Shown piece after piece: positions 631 to 40,319 of a stretch of 53,995 bases of DNA. How positions within the stretch are numbered: the stretch's first letter is position 1; each line of letters begins with the position of its first letter. A program made the position numbers and the translations under genes. The DNA is from a virus. The notes beneath the pieces were generated by a model that did not search any database, was not told the DNA's origin, and saw nothing but the letters and a program-made list of their open reading frames with translations. The stretch covers positions 1 to 53,995 of the IMG/VR virus record IMGVR_UViG_3300035698_029023. One strand, given 5' to 3'.

Positions 631-2154
631 GTGAAGATAGCCCACTTTGCTGTATTCAGCCCGCACCAATCGGGAATGTATGCGACGGTCCGTGACCTGA
701 TCCTTGCGGAGCGCCTGCAAGGAATCGATGCGCAGTTCGTCGACTATAGCACCAATGAATCGGGCGCGATGTACAGCAAAGTGGGCCTGTCTGACGGAGA
801 CATCGTAACAGTGTCGCACGACTGGGCATTCAAGGAAGCTGACATCCTGGTCCGGCACGCGATGATCCCGATGCCGATCACCCAGGTCGGAATTCCCATG
901 ATCATGGCCTTGCATGGGCGGCCGGAGTATTCCTTCATGGAGGAGCACTACGGGCGGAATCCAGTGATGCAGATTATCACCCGCCACGAAGTGGATCGGT
1001 CGTATGCTGCATACGTGACGTTCTGGCCGGAGCATCTGCTGTTCTGGAATCTCATAATGCCGAAGCGACCGGTTGCCTATGTTCCTTGCCCGGTAGACCT
1101 AGTGCGGTTCAACCCGAGCGGTCCCAAATTCTCATCGTCACACTGGACAGGTGCCCCGAACGTCATGGTCGCGGATATGTGGCGAGAGGACATCACGCCG
1201 TTTTGCATGATCCCTGCAATGGAAACTTTCCGGCAAGCGTTCTGCAAAGACGCAAAGTTGCACCTCTTCGGCTCGCCGCCGGTAACTAAGGGCTTCACGG
1301 CACAACTGGGTCAGCGTCTTCGGGATAGCGGGCTCGTCGGCGAGGCCAACATGCTTGTGCCGTTTCTTGACAAGGTGTATCGGTCGGCAGACATCCTCGT
1401 CACGCCTCACCGGATCGCCACGCGGGTTATCAGAGAAGCCCTCGCGTCCGGTTGTCCGGTGGTTGCTGGCACCGGCTGTGCCTTCACGCCCTACACGGCT
1501 GATCCACGAGACCCCGACGCTTTCGCGGCGGCAGTGAATCGGTGTTGGGAAGACGTGCAAGAGCAGGACGGGATGAGGGTAGAGGCCCGCACGATGGCCG
1601 AGAAGTCGTTTGGCCTGGAGGCGACCGGCAAGGCCATGTTGGCTTTGGGCGAGAGGATTCTGCAATCTCCCGTGGCCGTGCGCCCTGCCCTTCAGTGGGC
1701 CGGGTATACGATCGACCCGACCGACTGGGTTGTTCTGCGGGACTTTCTGATCCAACAGGGGATCAAGAGCGTCGTAGAGATTGGCCCCGGCCTGTCAACC
1801 GAATTGATGGACAGGCTCGGAGTCAAGGTCTTGGCCTATGAGACTGATCCGATTTACACCGAACGTATCAGGCGCAGGGTCACGGCGGCAAACGTCGAGA
1901 TTCGACAATGGAACGGACAGCGGCTTCCCGACGTAGACGGAGAGCATGGCCTGGCGTTCATCGACGGGCCGGCGGGCGGGGAAACTCGCGAGCCTGCCTA
2001 CGCTGCGATCGCCCGCAGCAATGTCCCGTTCGTCGCTTGTCACGACTGCAAACGAGAGGCGGACAGAGAATGGATCGTCAAGTATTTCTCCGCTTGGACT
2101 GTAGTAGCGACTAACGACGAGTCCGTACAAGGTCTGCTGATCTTGAGAAGGTGA
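631..2154 (+). CDS. Two-domain glycosyltransferase (GT4-like) with C-terminal methyltransferase-like domain
   Basis: 507 residues, GTG start behind a GGAGA ribosome site. Residues 1 to about 345 read as a GT-B fold glycosyltransferase of the GT4 type: an N-terminal lobe starting MKIAHFAVFSPHQSG and a C-terminal lobe with a nucleotide-sugar-binding-like segment near residues 252-280 (DILVTPHRI, then REALASGCPVVAG). Residues 370-507 read as a Rossmann, SAM-methyltransferase-like fold with a glycine-rich motif at about 380 (VVEIGPGLSTEL) followed by an acidic strand end (VLAYETDP). Such proteins normally transfer sugars from nucleotide donors to glycans or proteins in the cytoplasm. Here the gene sits between two small virion-type genes, so virion or host-surface decoration is inferred. 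The methyltransferase-like part could be degenerate; donor and acceptor are unknown. Confidence 0.7.
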   Translation: MKIAHFAVFSPHQSGMYATVRDLILAERLQGIDAQFVDYSTNESGAMYSKVGLSDGDIVTVSHDWAFKEADILVRHAMIPMPITQVGIPMIMALHGRPEYSFMEEHYGRNPVMQIITRHEVDRSYAAYVTFWPEHLLFWNLIMPKRPVAYVPCPVDLVRFNPSGPKFSSSHWTGAPNVMVADMWREDITPFCMIPAMETFRQAFCKDAKLHLFGSPPVTKGFTAQLGQRLRDSGLVGEANMLVPFLDKVYRSADILVTPHRIATRVIREALASGCPVVAGTGCAFTPYTADPRDPDAFAAAVNRCWEDVQEQDGMRVEARTMAEKSFGLEATGKAMLALGERILQSPVAVRPALQWAGYTIDPTDWVVLRDFLIQQGIKSVVEIGPGLSTELMDRLGVKVLAYETDPIYTERIRRRVTAANVEIRQWNGQRLPDVDGEHGLAFIDGPAGGETREPAYAAIARSNVPFVACHDCKREADREWIVKYFSAWTVVATNDESVQGLLILRR

Positions 2155-2159
2155 ATTGA

Positions 2160-2821: not shown

Positions 2822-2880
2822 GTAGTGAAGTCATCATGGATTGTTGACTGCGGCGAACAGTGTGTGATTCGGGGTGACCT

Positions 2881-3828
2881 ATGTCTCTATCGTCAGTTGA
2901 CCGGCGCGTCCGTGAGAACACCTCGGCGGTCTATACGGCCACCCTGAAGGACCAGGATGGCACCGTGATTGCCGCCGGATCTCTCGATGTGCTGACCTTG
3001 ACGCTGTACAACGACAAGGATGGGACGATCATCAACAGTCGTTCCGAGCAGGACGTGCTCAACGCGAACAACGTGACGGTCGATTCGAGCGGCGGATTGA
3101 TCTGGGTTGTCCAGCCGGCCGACAACGTCATCGTGGACACGTCTCTTGTTCCAGGTCAGATCGAGACGCACTACGCCCTGTTTGCTTGGACATGGGATTC
3201 CAGTGCAAAGCAGGGAAGCCACGGGGTACAGATCGACGTTCTTCAGGTGGACGAGGTCACGCTGTCTGCCGGTCCCACGATCATCTCAAGTTGGGGCGGT
3301 GGTACAAGCAATTCGTATGTTGCGTTGACCGCGGCCAACTCGTTCATTGTCAACTGTGTGCTTGACCACTCTGCCTGGGACTCCGCAAGTTCGGACCAGC
3401 GATGCGCCGCTCTGATGGAGGCTGTTCGGGACATCGATGCGCGCCAATATTTCTACACGAAGTACCTTAGCACGCAGATCCTGGAGTTTCCTCGTGCGAT
3501 TGGGCTTTCCTGGTCTGATTCTATCGGTGCTTGGGACCCGACGAACCTTTCCACCACCGAGACGAGGATGCAGCGAGATGTGGAGCAGGCATGCTGTCAC
3601 CAGGCGCTCTTCTTGCTCCAGCAGCAGGCCAAAAGTGCCCACGCAACGCTCCGCGATGTTGGTGTGACGAACGTCAAGCGGAAGGTGGGGCCTGTGGAGG
3701 AGGAGTTCCGGTACGCCAGTCCTACAGAGGATGCCGGGCGTCCCGGAGGAGGCAAGAGGCCGCTCTGCATGGAATCGCTGCAACTGCTTTCCGATTGGAT
3801 TACTTCCAAGAGGATTTATCGCGCGTGA
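2881..3828 (+). CDS. Head-tail connector protein with N-terminal Ig-like domain (DnaT-like/adaptor family)
   Basis: 315 residues in two parts. Residues 1-125 form a beta-rich Ig-like segment (TSAVYTATLKDQDGTVI, then TLTLYNDKDG), similar to those decorating phage structural proteins. Residues about 140-300 match the phage adaptor often annotated as putative DnaT-like or head-tail connector protein: NSYVALTAANSFI followed by a helix with AWDSASSDQRCAALMEAVRDI and a second helix (EQACCHQALFLLQQQA). The family forms the ring beneath the portal. Its place before the head-closure, minor-capsid and tail-completion genes agrees. The fusion of an Ig-like part to the adaptor is somewhat unusual. Confidence 0.65.
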   Translation: MSLSSVDRRVRENTSAVYTATLKDQDGTVIAAGSLDVLTLTLYNDKDGTIINSRSEQDVLNANNVTVDSSGGLIWVVQPADNVIVDTSLVPGQIETHYALFAWTWDSSAKQGSHGVQIDVLQVDEVTLSAGPTIISSWGGGTSNSYVALTAANSFIVNCVLDHSAWDSASSDQRCAALMEAVRDIDARQYFYTKYLSTQILEFPRAIGLSWSDSIGAWDPTNLSTTETRMQRDVEQACCHQALFLLQQQAKSAHATLRDVGVTNVKRKVGPVEEEFRYASPTEDAGRPGGGKRPLCMESLQLLSDWITSKRIYRA

Positions 3829-4184: not shown

Positions 4185-4189
4185 GATCA

Positions 4190-5098
4190 ATGGATGCCAG
4201 AGTTGAAGAACTTGTTGATCTCTATGCCGAGAAGTCGGATGAGATCGCTGATCTGATGACCGACTTGGCGCTTGCCGGGCGCGATGATCAGAAGAAGCGG
4301 GCCATCCTGGCGCTGATCCTTCTCGTGCTGGATCGCCTTCGCAGGACCACGTTGACTTGGTCTGAGGAGACCGCTGAGGAGATCTATCGAGAAGCGGATC
4401 GGGAGGCGTCCCTCGCGCTTGAGGAGGTGGGTCTCCTGGAATTCGCCGACTGGGCCCCTGAATGTGACGAGGAGATCCAGCGGATCGTTTCGGGGCACGC
4501 CGTCTACTTCGACGATGCGCTTACCTCGGTTCGTTCCCTGGCTTCCAGGATCCACCAGGGTAGGTTGCCGACTGACATGGTTTCCGGTCGGAATCGGATG
4601 GCGCTGTTGCTGGGAACGCTTTCGGTTGTTGGGATGGCAAATCTTCGTCCTCGTCTGCGGCAGCAACTTCGGCACCGTACGGTGGGAATCATTGCCTCCG
4701 ATGCGAGGCTGCGACGGTTTTCTCCGGATTACTACGCGATGCTGGTGGCGGAGCACATGAGGGCAGATGCCATTTCCCGCGCGACCATTTCTCGGAGCAT
4801 GCTGAATGGACAGGACCTGGTGAAGGTCAGTCCCAACCCAAGCACGATCGGAGATTACTGCGACGAGTACCGCGGGAAGGTCTTCTCGATCAGTGGGCTG
4901 GATCCCCGTTATCCTCCGGTGGCCTCGCTTCCGAGTGGGGGCTGCCCAATGCACCCCAACTGTCATCACACGCTCCAGGTGTACGATGGTGTTGATGATC
5001 GTGGTTTGGTGAATCCGGCGTTCACGCAGTTGGCTGCTACCGGGACGGCGGGTCCAAACGAGTTCCAGCGGCTGTGGAGGGGAAGCAGTGGGCATTAA
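4190..5098 (+). CDS. Minor capsid / head morphogenesis protein
   Basis: 302 residues, starting 5 nt after the previous stop. The N-terminal half is charged and helical. The C-terminal part carries the signature of phage minor-capsid/head-morphogenesis proteins (SPP1 gp7 or Mu gpF type): a conserved DYCDEYRGKVFSISG block, then GGCPMHPNCHHTLQV with the typical HPNC(R/H)H metal-like motif near residue 265. These proteins act in capsid assembly and DNA ejection. The gene overlaps the next by 11 bp. The family assignment is by motif; the order, after the connector rather than next to the portal, is slightly unusual. Confidence 0.65.
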   Translation: MDARVEELVDLYAEKSDEIADLMTDLALAGRDDQKKRAILALILLVLDRLRRTTLTWSEETAEEIYREADREASLALEEVGLLEFADWAPECDEEIQRIVSGHAVYFDDALTSVRSLASRIHQGRLPTDMVSGRNRMALLLGTLSVVGMANLRPRLRQQLRHRTVGIIASDARLRRFSPDYYAMLVAEHMRADAISRATISRSMLNGQDLVKVSPNPSTIGDYCDEYRGKVFSISGLDPRYPPVASLPSGGCPMHPNCHHTLQVYDGVDDRGLVNPAFTQLAATGTAGPNEFQRLWRGSSGH

Positions 5099-5621: not shown

Positions 5622-5633
5622 GTGAGGTCCACG

Positions 5634-8579
5634 ATGCTTTTTGGTTTTGTCACTTCTGGTTTGAAATTCAACGGAGATTCTCTCAAGCGAGGGGCGCTAG
5701 GAGGCAGCGAAACGGCCATGATTTGCATGGCATCTGAGTTGTCGAAGCGGGGACACGATGTCCGTGTGTTTTGCGAATGCGATGCGCCTGGTGACTACGG
5801 AGGTGTTCGGTACCTGACCCGGGAGGAGTTTGCTGCTCAGGTGGCGGTTCGTCCCTTTGACGTGTTGGTTGCCAGCCGCTGGCCGCAGTTCTTGTCGATT
5901 CCTTCTCAGGTGGGTCTGCGTGTTCTGTGGAACCACGACGTGGTCGGCAAGAAGGAGGACTTCATGCCGGTCCTCTGGCAAACCGACTTGTTGCTGTGCC
6001 TGTCCGACTACCACGTCGAGGACTGGTGCCGGGCGGCTCCGGAACTTCGCCCGCACATCTGGAAGACTTCCAACGGGGTCGACAAGGATCTCATCCAGGC
6101 CAACCTCCGTCGCAAGGTTCCGAACAAACTCATCTACACGAGTCGTCCGGAGCGGGGACTGCTCTGTCTGTTGCAGGATATCATGCCGAAACTCTGGGAG
6201 AAGAAGCCCGAGTTGCGGCTGCACTACTGTTCCTACGATCTCGGTGCAGCGATGGAACTGCCAGACGAGATCAAGGCAGTCCATGCCCATTGCGAAGGAT
6301 TGGCCAGGCAGTACGGGGACATGGTCGTGAACATGGGCGGGCTAACGAAGGAGGATCTCTATCGCCAGATGTCCAGCGCCCAGTTGCTGTTGTATCCGAC
6401 GAATTTTCCCGAGATCAGTTGTATCGGTGCAATAGAGGCACAGGCGCTGGGTCTGCCGCTTGTTACTTCTGATTCTTTCGCCCTGTCCGAGACGGTTGGT
6501 GCCGGCGGCATCAAGATTTCTGGGACTCCGGACGATCCGGAGTACGTTGACAAGTTCGTCGAGGCAACCCTGCGGGTGCTCGACGACAAGCAGGAGTATG
6601 CGAAACTTGCCGAGGGAGGGCCACAGTGGGTCAAGGATCAGGGATACACGTGGGATCGTGTCGCTGCTTCCTGGGAAGCGAAATTTTCCGGGATTCTCGA
6701 CAAGCGCTACCGAGGAAACCGGGTTGCCGTGGTCAAGGAGTTGCTGCGGAACAACGACCTCGGTACGGCGGGGCTCGTTGCTCGAAAGGAAGTCAAGGAG
6801 ATGGTGCCCGCCGTTGACCAGATGATCTCCGAGGTTGCCGTTGCCGACGTTTCTCCCGAGGAACTGCTGAAGCAGTACAAGGGTTCTCTGTCGCGATTTA
6901 ACCAGCTCTTCCAATTTCTTGCCTCGGAGGGTTTCGAGGGAACGTTGCTGGATCTGGACTCTGGGCATCTCTCGTTCGGGCTTGTTGCTTCCAAAGCCCT
7001 TCCCAATGTAAAGGTGTCTGTGGTTGCGAGGGACTTCGAGGTGGCCAAGAGTCTGGAATGCTACTGTGAGCGGAGCAAGTTGGAGGTGGACCTCCGCACC
7101 GCTGACACCCCGTTTGCCGATGAGCTGGGCAAGTTTGATGCGGTCTATGTGGGGCACGCGCCCGACATGGCGGCCGATCCGCAGGCGTATCTGCGGCGGG
7201 TGCAGGAACGGTGGGTGAAGGACGGAGGTCTGGTGGTGTTTTCTACACGGTTCGGAACGACCAGGCAGAAGGTTGCCAGCGCTCCGGAGCGGGTGTGGAA
7301 CCTCGGTTCTCTGGACTGGGAGCAGATTCTCCGGGAAACCCAGTTCTGGCTTGCCTTTGCTGACGACCGCACCGATCCTGGGGAGGATATCCGCGGACAC
7401 TGGTGTGGTGTTTTTCACAAGGCGAAGAAGTTTGGCAAGATCGACTTGCAGTCCAAGGTGCGCAGGACTCGTCCCTACCAGGAACTTGCCTTGTGCATGA
7501 TCACGAGGAACGAGGAGGACTCGATCCTTGCTTCGCTGAAGACTGCCAGTGTGGTTGTGGACACGATCGTGGTGGCGGACTCGAAGAGTGACGATCGTAC
7601 GGCTGAGTTTGCGAGAGAGTTCGGTGCCGAGGTGCGTCTCATCGACTTCGACAATTTTTCCCAGGCGCGAAATGCTTCCCGGGAGGGCGTTGATGCGGAC
7701 TGGATCTTGTGGTTTGATGCCGACGAGCGGCTGGTCGGAAGTCCTAGTCTCCGCGGGTACCTGAGCACGGCGATCTTCAACGGTTTTGCCATCCCGCAGC
7801 GGCATCTGATGCTGGACCTGCAAGGCTCCCACGACCTCCCTGTGCGGTTGTTCCGTAACCTTCCGAACTACCAGTGGACCGGGATGATCCACGAGCATGC
7901 GGAGGATATCTCCGAACAGCCCTTCGATGCTGATATCATGCCGGCGATGGTCCTTCCCGATGTGGACATCGCGCATTACGGGTACCTCAACGAAAAGCAG
8001 CGGAGGCAGAAGTGCTCTTACAGGAACATGCAACTGCTGCGGAAGGATATCGAGCAGTGTGCCTCAAAGGGCCGGATGCTCACATGGGTACTGGTGATCC
8101 GGGATTACCTGAACATGGTCAAATGGACGTTGCCCAAGAACGGGGGGCGGATTCGGGAGAACTCACGCGAGCACGAGTTGATCTCGGCGGCCGTCTTAAC
8201 CTATCTGAAGCACTTTTCCGGGGAGCGGACCAAGTATTGGGAGTTGGCCGAACCGATGTACCAGGAGGCGCTGATGCTTCTGGGCCGGAACAAGTTGTCC
8301 CCTGTCGGATTCAGTGTTCCGCCGCTTCACATCGAGTTGGAACTGGCGGGTGCTTTGGGGGGACTTAACCTGAAGCAGTCGGTCAAGCCCAAGAGACAGT
8401 GGTTTGTGTGCCAGGAGGAGTTCCGGCAGTTTATGGCCAACAAGTCGTTACAGATCCTGGTCGGTACCGGAATGGCTGCCGAGGAGGAGTGTGGCGGGGA
8501 TGCTGCGAGGTACATTCCGGAGATTACACAACTCCCAGATGCCGTCTCGCTTCTTGAACAGGGGGTGAATTTGACATGA
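5634..8579 (+). CDS. Trifunctional glycosyltransferase: GT4-like + methyltransferase-like + GT2-like domains
   Basis: 981 residues. ATG 5634 is chosen because a GAGG ribosome site lies 6 nt upstream; a GTG at 5622 would add four residues. Residues 1 to about 355 are a GT-B/GT4-type transferase with GGSET near the N terminus and an E-x7-E motif around 259 (EISCIGAIEAQALGLP). Residues about 430-580 form a Rossmann-like block resembling a SAM methyltransferase (LLDLDSGHLSFG, then FDAVYVGHA), perhaps degenerate. Residues about 616-830 are a GT2-type domain (LALCMITRNEEDSI, then VVADSKSDDRTAEFA, and a FDADER metal site near 692). A helical C terminus follows. Three catalytic units in one phage chain imply ordered building of a short glycan. 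It interrupts the head-tail gene run, so decoration of virion proteins is inferred. Confidence 0.75.
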   Translation: MLFGFVTSGLKFNGDSLKRGALGGSETAMICMASELSKRGHDVRVFCECDAPGDYGGVRYLTREEFAAQVAVRPFDVLVASRWPQFLSIPSQVGLRVLWNHDVVGKKEDFMPVLWQTDLLLCLSDYHVEDWCRAAPELRPHIWKTSNGVDKDLIQANLRRKVPNKLIYTSRPERGLLCLLQDIMPKLWEKKPELRLHYCSYDLGAAMELPDEIKAVHAHCEGLARQYGDMVVNMGGLTKEDLYRQMSSAQLLLYPTNFPEISCIGAIEAQALGLPLVTSDSFALSETVGAGGIKISGTPDDPEYVDKFVEATLRVLDDKQEYAKLAEGGPQWVKDQGYTWDRVAASWEAKFSGILDKRYRGNRVAVVKELLRNNDLGTAGLVARKEVKEMVPAVDQMISEVAVADVSPEELLKQYKGSLSRFNQLFQFLASEGFEGTLLDLDSGHLSFGLVASKALPNVKVSVVARDFEVAKSLECYCERSKLEVDLRTADTPFADELGKFDAVYVGHAPDMAADPQAYLRRVQERWVKDGGLVVFSTRFGTTRQKVASAPERVWNLGSLDWEQILRETQFWLAFADDRTDPGEDIRGHWCGVFHKAKKFGKIDLQSKVRRTRPYQELALCMITRNEEDSILASLKTASVVVDTIVVADSKSDDRTAEFAREFGAEVRLIDFDNFSQARNASREGVDADWILWFDADERLVGSPSLRGYLSTAIFNGFAIPQRHLMLDLQGSHDLPVRLFRNLPNYQWTGMIHEHAEDISEQPFDADIMPAMVLPDVDIAHYGYLNEKQRRQKCSYRNMQLLRKDIEQCASKGRMLTWVLVIRDYLNMVKWTLPKNGGRIRENSREHELISAAVLTYLKHFSGERTKYWELAEPMYQEALMLLGRNKLSPVGFSVPPLHIELELAGALGGLNLKQSVKPKRQWFVCQEEFRQFMANKSLQILVGTGMAAEEECGGDAARYIPEITQLPDAVSLLEQGVNLT

Positions 8580-8800
8580 TGAACCACGTCCAGCAGCGGT
8601 CCATCATTGATAAGGTGGTTGCGCGGCTCCAGCGCGAGGGGTACTACGGTAACCTGGTGCTTCAGTTTCGTGAGGGGAACTGGGTGCTCGCTCGGCATGA
8701 GCAGACATCGCTTCCCGAGGCGATTGCGAAGGGAGGCGTTACGCTCCTTACCCTCCCAGGAGATACCAGAGATGGCGAAAAAGCGCACGGTGGTTCGTAA
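8576..8800 (+). CDS. Small hypothetical protein
   Basis: 74 residues. The ATG at 8576 overlaps the stop of the glycosyltransferase (ATGA), with a second in-frame ATG at 8579. Charged, with one helix (SIIDKVVARLQREGYYG) and a short beta pattern (NLVLQFREGNWVLARHEQ). It may be an accessory of the glycosyltransferase or of tail assembly; no family is recognised. Its 3' end overlaps the next tiny gene by 29 bp. Confidence 0.5.
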   Translation: MMNHVQQRSIIDKVVARLQREGYYGNLVLQFREGNWVLARHEQTSLPEAIAKGGVTLLTLPGDTRDGEKAHGGS

Positions 8801-8870
8801 GGTTCCGAAGAAGCACACGCGGACCGTGTCCAAGATCAAGAGTCGGCAGGCTCGGCGGAGGAAGCGATGA
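8772..8870 (+). CDS. 32-residue strongly basic peptide
   Basis: 32 residues, MAKKRTVVRKVPKKHTRTV and onward, ending RQARRRKR. About half the residues are Lys, Arg or His, so it must bind nucleic acid or a negatively charged protein surface. AGGAGA lies about 10 nt before the ATG, and the TGA overlaps the ATG of the tail-terminator gene, which supports it as a real coupled gene. It resembles a ribosomal or protamine-like tail. Possible roles are packaging charge compensation or assembly bridging, but these are guesses. Confidence 0.5.
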   Translation: MAKKRTVVRKVPKKHTRTVSKIKSRQARRRKR

Positions 8871-9253
8871 GTGACGAAGTTGCCTTTTTGACGGCGGTCA
8901 CATCCTACGTTGGGGCCCACGGTCTGGGGACGGTTGGGACGGACCTTTTTTACAATTATTTTCCTGGTGATCCACGGGATGTGGTGGTCATTATGGGCGG
9001 AGGAGGACCGCCCCATCATTCGGACAAGACACACCGTCGTGGGCTGTCCGTTCAGGTGCGCAATCAGGATTCGGCGGAGGCGCTGACCAAGATCAATTCG
9101 CTCCGGGCCTTGTTTGACGACAAGTGGGGCCGATTGGGAACATCTGACTTCGCAGGTCGGTTCACTGCTGCTGGAGAACTTGGGCCGCCTGTTATTGACG
9201 CAGCCCAGGATACAGTGTACAATAGCAATCATGTGTTTGTTTCCTCACAGTAA
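8867..9253 (+). CDS. Tail terminator / phage minor capsid-like protein
   Basis: 128 residues. The pattern HHSDKTHRRGLSVQVRN followed by DSAEALTKINSLRALFD matches the family annotated as bacteriophage minor capsid or tail-terminator protein, which caps the growing tail tube and binds the neck. Position between the neck gene and the tail tube gene is the classical one. The stop codon lies inside an 8-bp inverted repeat (9238-9260) that may end transcripts or limit read-through into the highly expressed tube gene. Confidence 0.6.
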   Translation: MSDEVAFLTAVTSYVGAHGLGTVGTDLFYNYFPGDPRDVVVIMGGGGPPHHSDKTHRRGLSVQVRNQDSAEALTKINSLRALFDDKWGRLGTSDFAGRFTAAGELGPPVIDAAQDTVYNSNHVFVSSQ

Positions 9254-9260
9254 GGAAACA
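9238..9260 (+). terminator. Stem-loop at end of tail-terminator gene
   Basis: TGTTTCCT at 9238-9245 pairs with AGGAAACA at 9253-9260 around a 7-nt loop, and the T-rich TTGTTTC follows. The stem is only moderately stable, so this is either a weak intrinsic terminator or an mRNA 3'-end stabiliser. It separates the neck genes from the tube gene. Confidence 0.4.
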
Positions 9261-9326
9261 TTGTTTCTGACAAGTTTACGGTGCTGCCCCCTCTGGCGAG
9301 CGACGACCGCGGTTCTGGGGTGACGG

Positions 9327-9340
9327 CGACTAGCTAGTCG
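9327..9340. promoter_or_regulatory. 14-bp perfect palindrome followed by TTTT
   Basis: CGACTAGCTAGTCG is a perfect palindrome, followed directly by TTTTGTC and located 29 bp before the ATG of the tail tube gene. It could be a protein-binding operator, or the short hairpin (five pairs, AGCT loop) of a weak terminator. No promoter boxes are evident in the 115-bp gap 9254-9368. Confidence 0.4.
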
Positions 9341-9368
9341 TTTTGTCTTTCGCTCCCCGGAGGTTCCA

Positions 9369-9992: not shown

Positions 9993-10027
9993 CCCACTTT
10001 CTGACGAAAGAATCGAGGTAAAGAAAG

Positions 10028-10845: not shown

Positions 10846-10869
10846 CGGTAGTGTTGCGAGGGGCGTGCT

Positions 10870-13800
10870 ATGGCGATCAATCTTGGTGGGGTTGTTTTTA
10901 CCATCAGCGTCAAGATAGATGGGAACGTCACTAAGAGGGTGTCGGGTCTCGCAAACGCCTTCAAGAAGCTACAGCTTTCTTCTTCGGCTGCCTCCGACTC
11001 GATCTCGTCCGCCGAAGGTTCAATGCGCAAGAGTGCTACCGGTGCGGCAAAGGCTGGTACTGCCGGTGCTCGTCTGGACCGGATCAGCCGGAGTCTGGTT
11101 TCCACTCAGAAGCGGTTGGCGAAGGCAGAGAAAGAACTTGCTGCCACCAAAAAGCGCCTGGCAGAGCAGACGAAACGTCTGGCCGACTCCACCGAGAAAT
11201 TTAGCCAACGGGCGCACGCTGCAAGTCATGCTTTGGCAGCCCTGGGGGTCGGTTTTGCATCGGTGAAGTTGAAGGACTTTATGACTCAGACGGCCCTCCT
11301 GGCCGGTCGTGTTGAGAACCTCCAAACTATTCTGAGAAACGTCGGTGCAAATGCCGGGTACACAGGGACGGAACTCGATGTCCTGGAGAGGAAGATTCGC
11401 CGGCTTGGCATTACAACCCAAGCGGCTCGTGAGGGGCTGACGCTCTTGGCGAGGAACAACCTCGATCTTTCCAAGTCGGCCGTGCTTGCCCGCATTGCGC
11501 AGGATGCTGCTGTCATTGCGGGCGAGAACTCTTCCCAAGCCTACGAGAAGTTGGCCATTGCCATCCAGCGGCTGGACACCCGGTTGCTTCGGAACCGAGG
11601 TATTCTCATCAACCTGCGGAACCTCTACCAGCAGATCGCTGTTGCGACGGGTCGCGTGGAGACAACCCTAACTGCGGCCGAGAAGCAGCAGATTCTGATG
11701 GATGCGGTTATCCGGAAGGGCGTCCAGACCTACGGCACCTACGAAGCGGCCATGAATGACGTGTACAAGCAGTATACGTCCCTGGTGCGCGTGGTTGAGC
11801 AGGCGCAGTTGGAATTTGGTAAGCAGTTCCAGCCGATCTTTAAGCATTATGTTGACATCATTGGGTTGCTGTCGAAGGCGTTCGAGGAAGCCAGCATTGA
11901 GGTTAAGGCAGGAACTGCTGGGTTGTCCACGTTCGTTCTTACGGCGGGCCTAGCGGCAGCCGCTATTTCGTCTGCGAAGGTTGGCTTGGCGGCTTTCGTG
12001 TGGTGGCAGCAGGCGAACGTGGCAGCAACCACTGCGGCGGCAGGTGCCACGCGAGGCTGGCTCGTAGCCCTGAACGCGATTCCAATGGTGAAGGTTGCTG
12101 CTATCATCGGAGGGCTTGTTGCTGGATATGTCACTCTCAGAGCTGTGTTGAAGGATATTGAGGATGACTTCGAGGACCAGAAGACTGCCGCTGCCGAGGT
12201 GACCTCTTCGATGGTCGAGTTGCAGATGGCTGTCCAGGAAATCAGTCGCCTGGAGGAGGCGAACGATGATTCCGCGGTTGCGGTCACGCGGTTGAAGTTG
12301 TCCATTAGCGACTTAAAACTGGCAGCTTTCGAGGCAAACATTGACCTGCGCAATCTTAGCACGACTGCCGAGATGTTGAACAAGATTGGTCTTAAAGCAC
12401 CGGCGGCGATGATGGATACGGTGCAATATATCGGTCTGCTGGAAAAGCGCGCGGTTAGTGCGCAAGAGACGTACGAGAAGTACCGTGCCATCTTTCCGGA
12501 GGATAACTTTCGCAGAAGTCTGGGCGATGTCATGGTGTTGGGTGGCCGTGGTGGGGCTAGGCGGGAGCAGGCTAAAGAGAAAGCGGAAATAGCGCACCAT
12601 GCGTTTGTTGCTGCGGAGGAAAAGTCCAATGCAGTGGAACTTCGTTATCTTAACAAGCGGTCGGAAGAACAGGCGGTGGCTCATCAACTTGCCATGCGTG
12701 CCGAGGGCAAGTTTAATCGGGAACGACAGAAGCTTTTTGATGATGCTCACCTGGACATTATGGTGGAGTTAGAGGAGTACCGGGACAAACTTCGTACGGT
12801 TTTTATGACGGAGGAGGAGATTTTGCGGAGGTCCCGTTTGGATTGGGGGATGCGTGAGAAGCAGACCCGCAAAAATTTCAAGCAGAAGATTGAGGAGGCA
12901 TCCACGGTCGCCGAGAAGGCCGAGGCCGAAGCGCAGTTGGCTGGAACGCTTGCAGCCATTCGTCAGGATGTTCGCGAGCAGACGGCGCAGCAGTTACAGA
13001 TGAGGACCAAGGTTCTCGAAATGGAGGAGGCCACCCTTAAACATGCTCAGACGCGCCGGCTTGAGGAGGTCAGAATCACGGTGAACCTAGAGGAACAACT
13101 TACGGCAATGGAGCGTCTGGAGGACGTGGGCTATGTTAAACTGGCCCAGGAATATCGTGATGCAGCGAAGCGATTTCTCAAGGCCCAGGCGGAGTTTCGT
13201 CGCACTCTTTACGGAAGCGGTACAGCCCGAGGTGAGCTTTTGGAGGCTGAGCACAAGGAGGGCGCCGCGAGCCTTGCGGAAATGCGCAAGGATCTGAATG
13301 ACCTGGAATCGCGTGCGGCATCTGCTCGCCGTCGTGGATCCGAGGCGTTGTCGAAAACTCTCAAACGGCAGGCGGAAGAACTCAAGGATTCGATTGTGGC
13401 TGCTGCTACACATCAGGAGCTTCTGCGGCAACAGATCATTGTTATACGGACTGGACTTGTCGGTCTTCAGGCCGAGTTGTTGAAGACGATTGCGGGGGGT
13501 GGTCGTGCGGCCGAGAACGCAGAGGAGTTACTGGTGTCCGTTGGGAAATCTGTTATCGATGCTGAGAAAAATATCGAGGGTAGTCGGGCGAGGCACATGC
13601 AAGAGCAGCGTAAACGACTGCTGGAGATGATGAAGGTTCAGGACGATGTCTTGGATCATCACGTTCAGAACCAGGAGCGGATTCTTGGGGAAATCGGTGA
13701 CCTGGAGGAGGACACGACCCGCATGACGGAGGAGGCAGTTCGCGACCGCATTGCGGCAAGGAAAAAGGAGTTCCAGGAAGTCAACGACTTCATCCGGCAG

Positions 13801-15642
13801 GTGTCCGTTGACATGGCTGATGAGTTGGCTCCGGGGGTGGGTAAGGTTACCAAGTTGTTCGATACCTTTATTGAGCACATTGACAAGGCGACTACGGGGC
13901 CTCAGCTCGATCGGTTGGTTTCCCTTTTTCCCCAGAAGTTGGTGGCGGAGTCCAAAAAGGACGGGGAGAAGATGATCTCGCTCCAGGAGGACATCGCCGA
14001 ACGGCGCCTGGAGATTGTACGGGAGTATCACCGAGCGCGTGCTAAGGCTTCCGGTGCTTCCCCCTCGGGTCGTCAGCAAGCCTACCTCGATTTTCTGTCT
14101 GCCACGGTGGATGCTCGGCAGGACATTGGGGAGATGAGCAAGGAGCAGGCGAAGCTTCGCCAGCAAGTTACGGAGCGGAGCAAGATCGAGGAGGAGGCCA
14201 AGAAGCGCATTAAGGCAGCAGCAGCGGACCGGCGGAAAATGTTGGATGCAAAGCGGGCGGAGCAAGCGAATGATAAGGTGTTCATCGACACCCTCATCGA
14301 CAAAAAGAAGCACCAGCTTGCTATCGAACAGACGCTGACAAGTGAGACCGCGCAGCAGCGGGACAATCTTCAACAGCAACTTGAGTCGTTGGAGAGGATC
14401 ATTGCTCTGATTTCGGGTGGTGGCCTGAATGCCCTCAAAGATGCCCACCTGGCTGCGACGGTCGAAGAGCGGTGGGAAGATGCCGAGGTACTGAAGGGGG
14501 AAATCGAGAAGGAGGAAGCCCGTCGTCGGAAGATTGATGTCGGGCGGCGGGAGGTTCGGGAAGCATTGGGACGAAAACGTACTGAGGTCGAAGAGAGCCT
14601 CGCGGGCGGGAAGGACATGGAGTCCTTCTTGAAAGCGCAAATTGATCGTTTGTTGCGCCGTGGTAGCAAGGATGAGGCTGCCAGGTTGGAGAAAAAACTA
14701 GATGAGTTGCAGGGGCGCATGGAGGAATCTGTATCTGTTTTGCGGGACATTGATGCACACTTGCGGGACCTGGCTCCCGGTGGTCCGCGTCCGGGGGGTG
14801 GTGCTGCGGGTGGTCCGCCCCCACAGTCCGGTCCCCAGCCTCCACCGCCAGGTCCCGCGGCGCCCGGCCCACCGCCGGCTGGCCGGGGGGCCAGGAAGGA
14901 TCTCACGCCTGATGAGGAGGCTGCATGGGAGGAGAAACTGAAGAGGGTGCCAGTCGGAGAGTCGATACAAAAGCCAGTTTCTGGCAACTGGACTAAAAAT
15001 ATGGGGGATGGACGCTGGGAGACCACCGTGTTGCGACAACCTCGTGGCGGTGGTCCTGTGCGGGATGTGGAATCCAGTATCAGCATGATCACGTCTGTTG
15101 ATCGAGGTCGCGGGGGTCCTACGCAGACCGCCAGGGATTTTGGTCTTGATGCCGTGGAGCGGTCTGGAATGACCAATGTTCCTTACGTAAGGAGTGAGCG
15201 GGAGAAGTCGTTCAAGGAGGACCTTGAGAAAATTCGTCGGGGGCGCAGGGAGGCAGCCAAGCCGACGCCGCCAGGGGAGCGGCGGGAACAGTGGATGCAG
15301 CGCCAGCACGAAAAGTCCGAGGCGTACAAGCGGCAGCAGCGATCGCGTGCCCTTGAGCACGCGATCGGGGGACCGGTTCAGCAGAGGTTTCCCGACCTGA
15401 ATCCTTTTACTGCGGTGCCACAGGCTAAGCAGGCACTCGTGGGTCCGCAAGGGGAGCAGGCGTCTGCGGCCATGCAGGAGCAGCGGAAGGCGGTGGAGAG
15501 TGCCTTGGAAAAGATTGGGATGACGTGGGGGACGATTAAGGATGCCTCTCTCCTTCTGGCCAAAAATGCAAAGGAGAAGGCAGACGCGCTGGCCGCGGAC
15601 GCTCAGACCTATGAGCAGGAAATTCAGGGGATGGCAGAATGA
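10870..15642 (+). CDS. Tail tape-measure protein
   Basis: 1590 residues, the longest gene here. The start MAINLGGVVFTISVKIDG is followed by long charged coiled coils. Two hydrophobic spans lie around residues 352-425 (LSTFVLTAGLAAAAIS and VKVAAIIGGLVAGYVTLRAVL), the usual tape-measure membrane-active region. Residues about 1300-1345 are a Pro/Gly-rich linker. No lysozyme or peptidase domain is recognised. Using about 1.5 angstrom per residue, the rule for siphovirus tails, the tail would be near 240 nm. GAGGGG sits ahead of the ATG. The last bases overlap the next gene by 4 bp (ATGA). Confidence 0.85.
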   Translation: MAINLGGVVFTISVKIDGNVTKRVSGLANAFKKLQLSSSAASDSISSAEGSMRKSATGAAKAGTAGARLDRISRSLVSTQKRLAKAEKELAATKKRLAEQTKRLADSTEKFSQRAHAASHALAALGVGFASVKLKDFMTQTALLAGRVENLQTILRNVGANAGYTGTELDVLERKIRRLGITTQAAREGLTLLARNNLDLSKSAVLARIAQDAAVIAGENSSQAYEKLAIAIQRLDTRLLRNRGILINLRNLYQQIAVATGRVETTLTAAEKQQILMDAVIRKGVQTYGTYEAAMNDVYKQYTSLVRVVEQAQLEFGKQFQPIFKHYVDIIGLLSKAFEEASIEVKAGTAGLSTFVLTAGLAAAAISSAKVGLAAFVWWQQANVAATTAAAGATRGWLVALNAIPMVKVAAIIGGLVAGYVTLRAVLKDIEDDFEDQKTAAAEVTSSMVELQMAVQEISRLEEANDDSAVAVTRLKLSISDLKLAAFEANIDLRNLSTTAEMLNKIGLKAPAAMMDTVQYIGLLEKRAVSAQETYEKYRAIFPEDNFRRSLGDVMVLGGRGGARREQAKEKAEIAHHAFVAAEEKSNAVELRYLNKRSEEQAVAHQLAMRAEGKFNRERQKLFDDAHLDIMVELEEYRDKLRTVFMTEEEILRRSRLDWGMREKQTRKNFKQKIEEASTVAEKAEAEAQLAGTLAAIRQDVREQTAQQLQMRTKVLEMEEATLKHAQTRRLEEVRITVNLEEQLTAMERLEDVGYVKLAQEYRDAAKRFLKAQAEFRRTLYGSGTARGELLEAEHKEGAASLAEMRKDLNDLESRAASARRRGSEALSKTLKRQAEELKDSIVAAATHQELLRQQIIVIRTGLVGLQAELLKTIAGGGRAAENAEELLVSVGKSVIDAEKNIEGSRARHMQEQRKRLLEMMKVQDDVLDHHVQNQERILGEIGDLEEDTTRMTEEAVRDRIAARKKEFQEVNDFIRQVSVDMADELAPGVGKVTKLFDTFIEHIDKATTGPQLDRLVSLFPQKLVAESKKDGEKMISLQEDIAERRLEIVREYHRARAKASGASPSGRQQAYLDFLSATVDARQDIGEMSKEQAKLRQQVTERSKIEEEAKKRIKAAAADRRKMLDAKRAEQANDKVFIDTLIDKKKHQLAIEQTLTSETAQQRDNLQQQLESLERIIALISGGGLNALKDAHLAATVEERWEDAEVLKGEIEKEEARRRKIDVGRREVREALGRKRTEVEESLAGGKDMESFLKAQIDRLLRRGSKDEAARLEKKLDELQGRMEESVSVLRDIDAHLRDLAPGGPRPGGGAAGGPPPQSGPQPPPPGPAAPGPPPAGRGARKDLTPDEEAAWEEKLKRVPVGESIQKPVSGNWTKNMGDGRWETTVLRQPRGGGPVRDVESSISMITSVDRGRGGPTQTARDFGLDAVERSGMTNVPYVRSEREKSFKEDLEKIRRGRREAAKPTPPGERREQWMQRQHEKSEAYKRQQRSRALEHAIGGPVQQRFPDLNPFTAVPQAKQALVGPQGEQASAAMQEQRKAVESALEKIGMTWGTIKDASLLLAKNAKEKADALAADAQTYEQEIQGMAE

Positions 15643-16070: not shown

Positions 16071-16079
16071 GAGTAACCC

Positions 16080-17630
16080 GTGGCCACGAATCCTCCCCGC
16101 TCTGGTGACCTGATTGACTTTGACGACATGTCGAAGTTGCTCTTTCTCGTTGATTCCACAACGATCAATTTATCCTCGTCGTACTACAAGATGGAGTCGT
16201 TGCAGACAACGTACGACCAGAAGTCGCTCACCTTTTCCGAGATTGCAACTCCCGATATCTCTTCTCCGAGTTTTGCCCCAAATCATGTTGTCGAGTTGAA
16301 GTTTGATTTTGGAAGTGGTCTGACGACGTACTTCAAGGGAAAGATTCACAAAAGGGTCCGGACAGGGAGGAACGGTGGGGAGGGGTTCCAGTACATTGCT
16401 CACGGGTACCAGTTGTTGGCGAACGAGGCTCCGCTGCGCAATTCCTGGGGACTTCCATACGTCCCGTTTGCGTGTGGGAGTCACATCACGACGGTCGGAA
16501 CCGCAGTTGTCTGGGGGACACCGATCAGTTCGATTGTCACGTCTATCTTTTCCCTCTGCTCCACGGCCCTCCAGACTCTTGGTATCCCAACGGACATTGG
16601 GTCTCCTGGAATTGACGTGTTCACAGGCGTGGTCCAGGAGGACCTGGCTTTCACCAACACGAATTTCGTGGACGCCCTCAATCAGGCCATTTCTCGCGAG
16701 CCGGACAGGAAACTCTTTTTCGACGACACCCAGCAGAAGTGGATCTTTCCGAGCCCACTGACCTGCGGTGTGGAGACTCTTACGGTCAACAGCATCAACT
16801 TACAGGAGTTGGTCTACGACGAGGACATTACGGGGCGGTACACGGCCATCGAGTTGTCGGCAGCCTACGAGGGAACACGCACCATTCCCTCGAAGCAGGT
16901 GGTTGCCTGCTCGCCCGACTGGGACGCTGGTAAGGAGGCCGACTGGTGTTTGCAGAAGTGTGGTGTGGCCGGGGGCGATCAGTTTTGCGATGGCTATGAT
17001 GTGGTCCACCGTCGCTGGAAGTTTGATGAGGGGGTGGATGATCGTTGTCCGATGTCCCCGGCGCAGGCGTACGCGGTGACTGGGCACTGGGATCAGAGTA
17101 CGTACATTCCAGTTGCTGCTGACATCGACTTCAACAACGGTTTGGTGGTAACGTTGGCACCGGTCTTCAAGTGCGGAAACCCGTTTGTGCCAGCGGACAA
17201 GGAGGCTGGAGTTGTGAAGGTTAACGGCCTGGTAGTTTCCTACTGGAAGGTCGATTCCATTCCAGTGCCCGCCTGGCCGACCATCCGCTGTCCGACCACT
17301 GGTTTCGAGGGTACGGCGTATGACTTGTTCGGGGTGGAGAAGGTGAAGTATGAGTTTGTTGACTTCACGGAACTCCAAACCATCAATGCCCAATCGAAGT
17401 TGCGGTTGCTCAAGGACGTGATCATTTCCGGGACTCTGGAACTGGAGGGGGATCCGATCCCGGAACTCATCAATCTCCAGCGGCGCATTTCTGTGCGGCA
17501 CGACACCAACGTGACGGGGCTGGAGACTCTGGCCGCGGTGTACACCGGGTACACGTACACCTTCGGGCAGCGAGGCAAAAACCTGCTGAATCTAACGACC
17601 GACTTGTCGGGGCTGGTGAAGGTGAACTGA
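16080..17630 (+). CDS. Baseplate hub / tail tip protein (putative)
   Basis: 516 residues from GTG 16080 with AGGAG 7 nt upstream. The layout (an N-terminal beta domain, FKGKIHKRVRTGRNGGEGFQ, then an alpha-beta middle with DITGRYTAIELSAAYEGTRT) is like hub proteins that join tube and tip. Two Cys-rich stretches (WCLQKCGVAGGDQFCDG near residue 285 and CGNPF near 370) suggest metal or disulfide sites. The last residue overlaps the next gene by 1 bp. Assignment is by order and general fold pattern only. Confidence 0.5.
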   Translation: MATNPPRSGDLIDFDDMSKLLFLVDSTTINLSSSYYKMESLQTTYDQKSLTFSEIATPDISSPSFAPNHVVELKFDFGSGLTTYFKGKIHKRVRTGRNGGEGFQYIAHGYQLLANEAPLRNSWGLPYVPFACGSHITTVGTAVVWGTPISSIVTSIFSLCSTALQTLGIPTDIGSPGIDVFTGVVQEDLAFTNTNFVDALNQAISREPDRKLFFDDTQQKWIFPSPLTCGVETLTVNSINLQELVYDEDITGRYTAIELSAAYEGTRTIPSKQVVACSPDWDAGKEADWCLQKCGVAGGDQFCDGYDVVHRRWKFDEGVDDRCPMSPAQAYAVTGHWDQSTYIPVAADIDFNNGLVVTLAPVFKCGNPFVPADKEAGVVKVNGLVVSYWKVDSIPVPAWPTIRCPTTGFEGTAYDLFGVEKVKYEFVDFTELQTINAQSKLRLLKDVIISGTLELEGDPIPELINLQRRISVRHDTNVTGLETLAAVYTGYTYTFGQRGKNLLNLTTDLSGLVKVN

Positions 17631-18616
17631 TGGCTGGGGCGAGTGACTACAAGCAGGGTGAGATTGCTCGGTATCTCAAGAAGCTGTTCCTGGACATCAA
17701 GCAACTTGAGGCCCGGGTGAAGGCGGCGGAGAATGCCGGGCGCAACGTCGTCGAGCCGGGGACGGTGTATGCGGGAACCGGTTCCCCGTTTTCGCCGTTC
17801 ATCCAGTACGTGGTCAATGTTACCTCGGTCAACGGGACAAAGTTTTCGGGTAGTATCCAGCGTCCGTACCAGGACGCGGATTCGCCCTGGCAGGACGATC
17901 CTGAGTTCACGGATGCAATCACGGTTCATGTGACGAATCCGACGCCGGTGCCTGCTGTGGGGGACTATGTCCTTGCGCAGTTCACGGGAACCTACGCCAG
18001 TGACTATAAGCCGATCTGGGGGATGTTCGACAGGTACTCACCATGCCAGTGCAATTCCATTACATTGGACTCGACGCTCTTTATCGACGTGGCGGTTTGC
18101 ACCCCATGGAACAAGTGCGGGTCATACTTGGCTGTTCCACAGAAGCGCATTTATCTTCCGCAGGGGTGTATCATTGTCGACATGCCGACCACGTTTGTTC
18201 CGCTTTACGAGTGCCAGTCGGAAGGCGATCCGCCGGATTCGTCCGATTACAGCATGGGCGATTCCAGTGATTTTATCGGCCTTTCGGATAGCGATACGCC
18301 GCCTGTGGACATCTGGTACATCTGGCATCGCGGCGCTGCTGGTGATGGTGAGTGGTGGATTTCAAAGACTGTCGGTGATGAGATTGATGGCCACTGCTGG
18401 CGGAAGTACGACGACGATACAACGCCGCCGGTCGCAGGTGTTTACGGGACCGGGATGCTCACCACCGGTGACGCTACCGTTAGTACCACCGGCGGCATGG
18501 ATGTAAACGTCTCGGGCACCCTTAATCCAGACGCAACTGGCTATTACACGTTTCAGGGATGGGATCACCTGCACAACGGTCTTGGGACCTGGAAGCGCAC
18601 GGGAGGGCTGCCCTGA
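17630..18616 (+). CDS. Tail tip / fibre-like virion protein (putative)
   Basis: 328 residues starting on the last base of the preceding stop. The N terminus is helical (LKKLFLDIKQLEARVKAAEN), then a beta region with Ser/Asp-rich repeats around residues 200-225 (DSSDYSMGDSSDFIGLSDSD) and a Cys pair (CQC). The C-terminal 60 residues are Thr/Gly-rich (TGDATVSTTGGMDVNVSG), typical of fibre or receptor-contact regions. It stops on the ATG of the third glycosyltransferase gene, so its surface-exposed Ser/Thr residues would be natural glycan acceptors. Confidence 0.5.
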   Translation: MAGASDYKQGEIARYLKKLFLDIKQLEARVKAAENAGRNVVEPGTVYAGTGSPFSPFIQYVVNVTSVNGTKFSGSIQRPYQDADSPWQDDPEFTDAITVHVTNPTPVPAVGDYVLAQFTGTYASDYKPIWGMFDRYSPCQCNSITLDSTLFIDVAVCTPWNKCGSYLAVPQKRIYLPQGCIIVDMPTTFVPLYECQSEGDPPDSSDYSMGDSSDFIGLSDSDTPPVDIWYIWHRGAAGDGEWWISKTVGDEIDGHCWRKYDDDTTPPVAGVYGTGMLTTGDATVSTTGGMDVNVSGTLNPDATGYYTFQGWDHLHNGLGTWKRTGGLP

Positions 18617-21234
18617 TGCCGTCGATTCGTTTTGCCTCGCATCGCCAGGTCGCCGATCAGTGTGCCTCCCGGCCGCCGGCGTACCTGCGCGATCTGGAAC
18701 GGGTCATCGTCCGCCGCGACGAACACGGTGTCTGGTACGATGCGGCGCGCCCGGCCTACCAAGAGTTGCTGCTCAAGTACCGTCCACGGCCAGGTCCTGG
18801 ACGGCTTGCGGCTGGGGGGAATCAATGGCAGGCGTGGCGCGAAGAGGGTGGCCGATGGGTGCCCAAGGGTTGGATCAAGCCGGGCTACTACGCCGATCCG
18901 CCGCAGTTCGACCCGCTGCCGGGCGAGAAGTTCTCGACGCCCGGCTTCGAGGCGACGTGTTTCTGGGCACCACAGACCGCTGTTTCCGTGGACGTGGTGA
19001 TTCCGCTGGGGCGAGGTAGCCAGCATGGCGATGCCGAACTGCGCTACGCGCTGCGGTCGATTGAGAAACACGTCAAGAACCTTGGCCAGGTGTGGGTCGT
19101 CGGTCACTGCCCAACGTGGCTGCGAGGCGTGCGGTACATTCCCTGTGGCGACCCCAGCCGGATCAAAGACGCCAACATCCTGGCGAAGATCGAGGCGGCG
19201 TGTCGGGCGGGTTGTTCCGAACGGTTTCTCTTCTGGTCGGACGATCAGGTCTTGCTCCGTTCACTGGTCTTCTCGCAGTTCGGCCCGTACACCTGGGGCG
19301 ACGTTCGACCCGGCAACGGCCAAGCCAATCGCTGGCATCGGCGACTGGTGGCCACCCGCGACTGGCTACGGTCGGAGGGATTCACGAGTTGGCACTGTGA
19401 CACGCACGTCCCAATTCCGATGGAGCGGTCGCGCCTGTTGGAACTGTCCGAGTTGACCCGTGACAACTGGCAGCGCGGCGACGGCATGACGGTGGGGACG
19501 TGGTACGTCAATGCTTCGGAGTCGCACCCGAAGTCGATGGGTGATTGCAAGGCGACGATAGAGGGTCGGCTTCCGGTCAAGGAAATCCGTTGCCGCATCG
19601 CCGGGCGGTGGTTCGCGGGTTACAATGAGGCCGGTTTCACGCCCGAACTGCGGAAGCTGCTGGACAAGTTATTTCCCAAGAGATCCCGATTCGAGGATGG
19701 GTACGCAGCTACACCGCCGCGATTCGGTCGACCGGCAGGTGTTGGAATTGATCCGCGAATCAGCCAGAAGATCGAAGTTATGCGGCAGTCCATCGTACAG
19801 GAATGTCCCGCTGAAATGAGCGGTCGTGGAATTGTTACGTGTGCAGGCGGACCACTCTACCAGGCAAATGCTTACGTTCTATTTCGCCTGCTGCGCCACT
19901 TGGGATGCACGCTGCCGATTGAATGCTGGTACGACGGAGAGACGGAGGAAGACCCGGCATGGGCCACGCTGGTGTCGCCGCTCGGCGTTCGGTGCCGCGA
20001 CGTTCGGTCTGTTGGTTTCCGCAGGCTGCCCGAGTGGACCGGAGTACGCTGGCACGGCAATCGGCAATACACGTCCCAGCAGCTAAACGGATACGGGATG
20101 AAACCCTACGCAATTGCTAGGTCCGACTTCGCGGAAGTGCTTTATCTGGATGCTGACGACGATCCGGTGCGCGATCCTGCCTTTTTGTTTGAGTGTGAGG
20201 ATTATCGCAAGAACGGCTTGATGCTCTGGCCGGACAAGGGAAATGTGCCGGTGTCGGAAGGCTTTGGATTGAGAAAAGATCAAGTGACTTGCACCACTGA
20301 AAGTGGACAACTACTGTTGGACAAGCACCGCGCTTGGGACGTGGCTGCGCTTGCTGAATGGTTTGCGGAACACCGCGATTACTTCTTTCAGCATTCCTGG
20401 GGAGAGAAGGAATTTCACCACTTTGCCGGCATCTGTTGTGAACGGCCATTTGTCCTGGCACCGCCCGTGGCGATGAACAACCATACCAGCATGATCCAGC
20501 ACGCGCCGAACGGAGAACCGCTTTTTTACCACCGCACAACTCGTTCATCTAAGTGGCCCGTATCGGGAGAAGCACCGCGCGTCGATGGTTTTCCTTGGCA
20601 CGAAGAATGTGTTGGGTGGCTTCGTGAGTGGAGACTTTGGCGAGCACGAATTGCGACGAGGAAGTGTCGGATTACGCTGGTGATGGTAGTGTGCAATGAG
20701 GAAAAACGATTACCAGGGATGTTGACAGATACAGCTCCCTACGTCGACGAAATCGTGATCGTTGTACAAGAGTCCCATGATCGCACGCTGGAAATTGCTC
20801 GGAAGTTCGCCGATGTGCTGGTTGAACATTCCTGCCTGGGGCACGCTGGTCCGAGTACACCTGCTGCGTATGCGCACGCAAACGGTGACTGGGTACTTTT
20901 TCTTGATCCCGACGAGCGACTATCGGACTGGGGGAAAGAGAATCTCCGTGTATGGACGGCAGCGGAGATGGACTTCTATTGGCTTCGGGAACTGAGCACG
21001 GTCGACGGCGCATTCATGGAAGACAAACCGCATGGACGGCTATTTCGCCGCGGTAAGGGGGTTGTCGCAAAGACTGTTCACACCGACAAGCGGCCAGTGG
21101 ACGGCGCTCGAACGATGGCAGTTACAGATCGGGTGGTCATCGAGCATTTCAAAACTGGGGACGAACAGGCTTTGGACGATGCCCGCTACCGTTCCGTATC
21201 ATCACGATCTGTCGAGAAAGCTCCAACGGGTTGA
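18616..21234 (+). CDS. Three-domain glycosyltransferase: Stealth-like + MNN1/GT71-like + GT2-like
   Basis: 872 residues, ATG overlapping the previous TGA (TGATG). Residues about 120-300 resemble the conserved core of Stealth-type hexose-phosphate transferases: VDVVIPLGRGSQ, then ELRYALRSIEKHVKNLG, and a SDDQ site near 205. Residues about 400-560 match MNN1-like GT71 mannosyltransferases, with GIVTCAGGPLYQANAYVLFR and a LYLDADDD metal site near 508. Residues about 684-860 are a GT2-like unit (ITLVMVVCNEEKRLPGM, then FLDPDERLS near 761). No transmembrane segment is seen, so it acts in the cytoplasm. The three units suggest transfer of a phosphosugar and at least two sugars. Family calls are by motif; substrates are unknown. 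Confidence 0.7.
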   Translation: MPSIRFASHRQVADQCASRPPAYLRDLERVIVRRDEHGVWYDAARPAYQELLLKYRPRPGPGRLAAGGNQWQAWREEGGRWVPKGWIKPGYYADPPQFDPLPGEKFSTPGFEATCFWAPQTAVSVDVVIPLGRGSQHGDAELRYALRSIEKHVKNLGQVWVVGHCPTWLRGVRYIPCGDPSRIKDANILAKIEAACRAGCSERFLFWSDDQVLLRSLVFSQFGPYTWGDVRPGNGQANRWHRRLVATRDWLRSEGFTSWHCDTHVPIPMERSRLLELSELTRDNWQRGDGMTVGTWYVNASESHPKSMGDCKATIEGRLPVKEIRCRIAGRWFAGYNEAGFTPELRKLLDKLFPKRSRFEDGYAATPPRFGRPAGVGIDPRISQKIEVMRQSIVQECPAEMSGRGIVTCAGGPLYQANAYVLFRLLRHLGCTLPIECWYDGETEEDPAWATLVSPLGVRCRDVRSVGFRRLPEWTGVRWHGNRQYTSQQLNGYGMKPYAIARSDFAEVLYLDADDDPVRDPAFLFECEDYRKNGLMLWPDKGNVPVSEGFGLRKDQVTCTTESGQLLLDKHRAWDVAALAEWFAEHRDYFFQHSWGEKEFHHFAGICCERPFVLAPPVAMNNHTSMIQHAPNGEPLFYHRTTRSSKWPVSGEAPRVDGFPWHEECVGWLREWRLWRARIATRKCRITLVMVVCNEEKRLPGMLTDTAPYVDEIVIVVQESHDRTLEIARKFADVLVEHSCLGHAGPSTPAAYAHANGDWVLFLDPDERLSDWGKENLRVWTAAEMDFYWLRELSTVDGAFMEDKPHGRLFRRGKGVVAKTVHTDKRPVDGARTMAVTDRVVIEHFKTGDEQALDDARYRSVSSRSVEKAPTG

Positions 21235-40250: not shown

Positions 40251-40319
40251 GTGGGAACGATTCGTCCACAATCTGCGACATCTGCGGGAAGGAGATGTGA
40301 CACGTCCGTGGGAAGGCTG

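Follow-up and report, generated by a model that had tools for sequence, protein, structure and literature searches.

A tail-region gene paired with a multi-unit sugar-transferase gene points to probable virion glycosylation in an uncultured tailed phage

Here we describe three large genes located among the head-tail and tail genes of an uncultured tailed phage, represented by the 53,995-base viral record IMGVR_UViG_3300035698_029023 (the whole of this stretch is called the window below). Together they cover 7.1 kb, and their products are probably enzymes with which the phage glycosylates its own virion proteins. The three genes, with approximate residue limits for the units they encode, are as follows.

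631..2154, plus strand: gene 1, 507 residues; a glycosyltransferase (GT) unit of family GT4 (~1-345) and a C-terminal class-I methyltransferase-like unit (~345-507).
5622..8579, plus strand: gene 2, 985 residues; GT4 (~1-360), methyltransferase-like (~360-620), GT2 (~618-815) and an uncharacterised C-terminus (~815-985).
18616..21234, plus strand: gene 3, 872 residues; a Stealth/GNPTAB-like N-terminal module, or N-module (~125-365), a GT71-like unit (Mannosyl_trans3, ~403-610) and GT2 (~686-830).

The initial annotation had placed open reading frames at these three positions, which we confirm, gene 2 starting at either GTG 5622 or ATG 5634. Its count of six sugar-transferase and two methyltransferase-like units also agrees with the domain matches, which for most units greatly exceed what chance would give, the methyltransferases being weakly supported and the least certain of the set. 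It had described all three as glycosyltransferase genes, but the first unit of gene 3 has a Stealth-type fold and not that of an ordinary glycosyltransferase. Similarly, the three genes were said to interrupt the virion gene order without breaking it. All of them do lie in the virion region, but gene 3 is the last gene of the tail module, with the helicase gene following 982 bases further on, and thus terminates that order instead of interrupting it.

The evidence that carries our interpretation is the association between gene 3 and the gene directly upstream of it, whose product had been proposed as an acceptor.

17630..18616, plus strand: candidate acceptor, a tail-region protein of 328 residues belonging to a family of five.

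The ATG of gene 3 at 18616 overlaps the TGA of this gene, and co-expression of the two would follow from that overlap. Members of the acceptor family share the motif VCxxWNxCGxYLxxPQKRIY, a Ser/Pro/Asp/Gly-rich linker (residues ~197-226) and a Trp-rich C-terminal domain; around residues 199-228 of the window protein, 23 of 30 residues are Ser, Thr, Pro, Gly or Asp. Scans with the N-module and with this protein retrieved the viral contigs L011/L044, L045, L046 and L047, and a second scan using the tail-protein family added no members. Gene 3 or a homologue lies directly downstream in four of the five family members. In L011, L045 and L047, where a comparative search for gene order recovered the adjacency (L046 is the exception), the N-modules are 48-65% identical and, among the 27 window proteins compared, only the tail-region protein and gene 3 are conserved. 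This adjacency in three otherwise unrelated contigs supports the proposed acceptor. Indeed, similarity between the virion module of L011 and that of the window was not detectable, so that the pair apparently moved as a cassette. The units that follow the N-module vary, being GT71 and GT2 in the window and GT2 directly in L011. The contigs L011, L045 and L047 all stop inside the gene-3 homologue; these ends might be assembly breaks caused by strain variation in exchangeable C-terminal units, or they could be due to chance. The first ~110 residues of gene 3 (18616-18945) form an N-terminal extension outside the Stealth-like fold, which is full in L011 and shortened in L045 and L047, and which might provide a docking site for the tail protein.

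Within gene 3, the N-module matches PHROG 7999 (6.9e-23), a family listed as being of unknown function, and gives a sub-threshold match to the Pfam family Stealth_CR2 (3e-5; 24.6 bits against a cut-off of 39.4). A profile search reached zebrafish GNPTAB (4e-9), with alignment of the ELRYSLRS motif, the NDD motif and the histidine of HMP. In addition, a structural model built from a 26-sequence alignment has a pLDDT (predicted local distance difference test) score of 82.6, most of the catalytic core exceeding 90, and Foldseek places this model next to CpsY (2.7e-12) and GNPTAB (2.3e-11). The first 13 neighbours in the PDB, from 2.7e-12 to 5.6e-9, are all either CpsY of Mycobacterium tuberculosis, an exopolysaccharide phosphotransferase, or animal N-acetylglucosamine (GlcNAc)-1-phosphotransferase. 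The predicted structure thus has the Stealth fold, and a module resembling sugar-phosphate transferases had until now gone unrecognised in phage tail operons. The module also looks catalytic: the gene-3 clade keeps ELRYALRS and the DD of the (N/S)DD motif in CR2, the first residue being Ser and not Asn, and the CR3 histidine (His264, corresponding to His956 of GNPTAB) is kept in 25 of the 26 sequences. The catalytic residues of GNPTAB include Asp408 of the NDD motif and His956, and the enzyme also requires Arg986 (PMC11418123).

The two remaining units of gene 3 are more conventional. The GT71 unit matches PF11051 far above its cut-off (1e-23; 84.5 bits against 22) and has a DxD motif (LYLDADDD), while the GT2 unit matches PF00535 (1.1e-8) with DxD intact. 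Among all solved structures, the first match of this GT2 unit is GmaR (1.9e-8), a flagellin O-GlcNAc transferase (PMC9638930), and GmaR is likewise the best solved-structure match of the GT2 unit in gene 2 (values of 8.4e-15 and 4.2e-14 were obtained). The next structure matches for both units are peptide S-glycosyltransferases of the SunS type, which gene 2 reaches at 2e-6 (7msk) and, through the NCBIfam SunS family, at 1.3e-6. The likeness to GmaR favours protein acceptors without proving them: PHROG families of beta-1,4-glycosyltransferases and GtrB-like proteins are also matched in this GT2 neighbourhood. Genome scans for cellular relatives, using the GT71 part or the N-module alignment, found none.

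Genes 1 and 2 are assigned from their domains. Gene 2 matches the Pfam families PF00534 (GT4, 1.3e-8) and PF00535 (GT2, 2.8e-8), and its residues ~360-620 match Methyltransf_11 below the cut-off (E=0.0025). The GT4 of gene 1 exceeds the Pfam cut-off (PF13692, 2.4e-8, residues 194-308), and its C-terminus resembles methyltransferases weakly (0.11 in Pfam; 0.0006-0.0016 for the Erm/KsgA families of NCBIfam, in the motif-I region only). As for catalytic residues, the two GT2 units and the GT71 unit each have a DxD motif. Of the two GT4 units, that of gene 2 has a complete EX7E, whereas that of gene 1 lacks the first Glu of this motif. No homologue of gene 1 was found in the phages or viral contigs searched, viral contigs scanned with single sequences (gene 2, the DNA polymerase and the C-terminal part of gene 1) likewise gave no match, and an AlphaFold model of gene 1 made without an alignment (pLDDT 34) was not used.

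The wider PHROG 7999 family gives further support to a connection with tail proteins. Its Stealth-like loci include:

L012-L028, L038 and L039.
L050, positions 1273-1959.

In Streptomyces phage TurkishDelight, a Stealth-like gene lies directly 3' of the gene for the major tail protein. The same arrangement, with a single-domain relative of the N-module, recurs in 15 distinct actinophage-type loci, which were found by a scan seeded with the TurkishDelight gene and are related by ancestry and thus not independent; in some of them, a dual-GT4 gene precedes the tail protein gene. In mycobacteriophages of the K type (Fionnbharth gp6), the Stealth-like gene sits two genes ahead of the terminase small subunit gene.

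Several observations weigh against glycosylation of the virion. Genes 1 and 2 are each known from a single example. In contig L046, the tail protein is encoded without a gene-3 homologue in the 2 kb that remain before the contig ends. Lipopolysaccharide transferases (PHROG 13126 and 841) are likewise similar to the GmaR-type GT2 domains, and some Stealth-like relatives, in Gordonia phage OneUp and in cyanophage-like moron clusters, are distant from structural genes. Finally, the gene-3 clade has Gly in the column that likely holds the CR3 arginine (HKRT/PRS; HKRT in the actinophage relatives). CpsY cannot do without Arg419, and the CR4 motif is defined as C[LI]ND (PMC10668966); we infer the equivalence of our column to Arg419. 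The CR4 tetrapeptide C[LI]ND is absent from the N-module sequence. With the likely CR3 arginine replaced and CR4 missing, we rejected a classification of gene 3 as a genuine Stealth enzyme. The apparent loss of the essential CR3 arginine also casts doubt on phosphotransfer. The chemistry of the module may have switched from phosphotransfer to ordinary sugar transfer.

In L046, a radical-SAM gene (8273-9160 and 9182-10534 are the positions of this pair) lies directly upstream of the homologue of the 17630-18616 protein, and its product may replace the gene-3 type as the modifying enzyme.

The distribution of Stealth-like genes could also be read to mean that genes 1-3 are loosely attached cargo, or morons, with no particular virion acceptor and with a position that is merely historical. 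GT genes do move freely among phages, and Stealth-like genes occur in non-structural regions too. However, the candidate acceptor and gene 3 stay together across unrelated virion modules, with the start/stop overlap kept where it was measured, and divergent loci keep the Stealth-like gene behind that for the major tail protein; we therefore regard cargo of this kind as improbable.

A somewhat better, but still unlikely, alternative is that the enzymes remodel the host surface in the course of infection by changing its capsule, teichoic acid or lipopolysaccharide; this might, for instance, exclude competing phages or avoid re-adsorption to debris. Capsule enzymes, CpsY among them, are the best-known carriers of the Stealth fold, and the scores of the GT2 units to GtrB-like and beta-1,4-glycosyltransferase PHROGs would fit such a role. 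Among the open reading frames scanned, though, we recognised no GtrA-type flippase and no polyprenyl-phosphate GT, and the proteins of genes 1, 2 and 3 have no membrane segments (highest 19-residue hydropathy 1.18-1.67). A late virion placement and a specific pairing with a tail protein would also be unexpected for enzymes of this kind. The phage is lytic; no integrase was recognised among the scanned open reading frames, which makes lysogenic conversion unlikely.

Phage GTs are classically DNA-modifying enzymes, and the window carries genes for a Dam-like adenine and a C5-cytosine DNA methyltransferase (36044-36562 and 40251-41174), both in the replication half of the genome. It could thus be argued that the substrate is phage DNA, whose modified bases the transferases would glucosylate. 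We consider this very improbable. The GT genes are located among the late structural genes and not with the replication genes, their GT2, GT71 and Stealth folds match transferases of proteins or polysaccharides, and no gene for a hydroxymethylase or another base-precursor enzyme was found among the window open reading frames scanned, in a record that is probably incomplete on its left.

Self-encoded virion glycosylation, as first suggested by the initial annotation, remains the best-supported explanation, the presence of a glycan on the particle being something that we infer from the genes. In this scenario, soluble enzymes from genes 1-3, expressed late in infection, would modify virion proteins with sugars. 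Synthesis would begin at Ser or Thr, to which the GmaR-like GT2 unit, the Stealth-like unit, or both, would attach a sugar or sugar phosphate; elongation would fall to the GT4 and GT71 units and the other GT2, with the pair of methyltransferase-like units capping or decorating the sugars. Gene 3 would most likely modify the 17630-18616 protein, if this is indeed part of the virion, with the Ser/Pro/Asp-rich linker between its conserved domains as the candidate site, while genes 1 and 2 could modify neighbouring head-tail or decoration proteins. Such modification may serve to give the particle a variable glycan coat, for stability, adsorption or masking.

It is tempting to go further and to speculate, with more doubt than conviction, that the whole PHROG 7999 family, including gene 3, consists of dedicated tail-protein modifiers. 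Their Stealth/GNPTAB-type module would transfer sugar phosphate (or, in the arginine-less clade, sugar) to a tail protein, producing a phosphodiester-linked or hybrid glycan; acceptor and enzyme would travel as a mobile two-gene cassette, in which exchangeable C-terminal units set the type of glycan. Virion glycosylation is known in a few mycobacteriophages, and the targets of the enzymes are hard to predict. A cassette of a candidate acceptor and a fused transferase that recurs across unrelated virion modules would allow a direct prediction of both substrate and site. Moreover, since a Stealth-like fold for PHROG 7999 extends to cultivated mycobacteriophages such as Fionnbharth, the question becomes testable in laboratory phages.

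The composition of the set has precedent, and phage self-glycosylation is already known. The initial annotation did not recognise a set of this composition in a structural operon, but comparable sets have been described: according to the portions of the source consulted, Corndog and other cluster O phages encode, between portal and protease, an O-methyltransferase, two GTs and a GlcNAc-transferase (gp35-gp38), which were detected in infected cells and not identified in virions, and for which capsid modification was proposed (PMC4351075). The window resembles Corndog in having methyltransferase-like units and several GTs within the structural operon. However, the Corndog genes are described there as single-function, without fused multi-GT polypeptides, and those portions mention no Stealth or GT71 unit (PMC4351075). 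In mycobacteriophages, virion glycans on the C-termini of capsid and tail-tube proteins have been tied to phage-encoded GTs (Freeman et al. 2023, as cited in PMC12619734 and PMC11256854); that work is experimental, whereas our proposal is drawn from genes, and different acceptors are expected.

The individual units can be compared in the same way. The N-module shares with CpsY and GNPTAB a GT-A-like fold, the ELRYxLRS motif, (N/S)DD and the CR3 HxP; it differs from them in the gene-3 clade by the likely replacement of the CR3 arginine, by the lack of the CR4 C[LI]ND and by its fusion to GT71 and GT2. Both GT2 units, in genes 2 and 3, have DxD and match GmaR and SunS across the GT domain, but no tetratricopeptide repeat (TPR) was recognised in the window proteins. 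TurkishDelight presents a similar arrangement, with a dual-GT4 gene before (gp20) and a Stealth-like gene after (gp22) the major tail protein gene; unlike in the window, these are separate genes and the acceptor candidate is the major tail protein itself. What sets the window apart are three large multi-unit fusions, the Stealth-like and GT71 units, and an apparently mobile pair of candidate acceptor and enzyme.

Fused transferases near structural genes also occur in unrelated spring phages, in which GT2-TPR-GT4 fusions, further GTs and methyltransferases lie between or beside the capsid and portal genes; the fusions in L003 and L004 do contain TPR. In the Manatee Spring podovirus MW202718 (L003:18705-27536), a run of GT and methyltransferase genes that includes a GT2-TPR-GT4 fusion follows the major capsid gene. 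In another Manatee Spring phage, MW202497 (L004:5640-7205), a chaperonin (Cpn60/GroEL) gene lies between two GT genes, ahead of the portal gene.

Regarding the rest of the window, virion genes are recognisable from the left end to ~21 kb. No terminase, portal or major capsid gene was found in the window; these are presumably located to its left, the record probably being incomplete on that side. The recognisable virion genes include:

2881..3828, plus strand: head-tail adaptor Ad1 (phrog_477, 4.3e-12).
4190..5098, plus strand: minor head protein (phrog_4611, 1.4e-16).
From 10028: tail assembly chaperone.
10870..15642, plus strand: tape measure protein (phrog_167, 5e-4, together with its length and position).

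Downstream of the virion genes are genes for helicases, PolA, a clamp, a RecA-like protein, SbcCD and an exonuclease. The PolA protein, a family A DNA polymerase (29997-32468), carries an N-terminal domain of the uracil-DNA glycosylase superfamily (PF03167, 4e-18).

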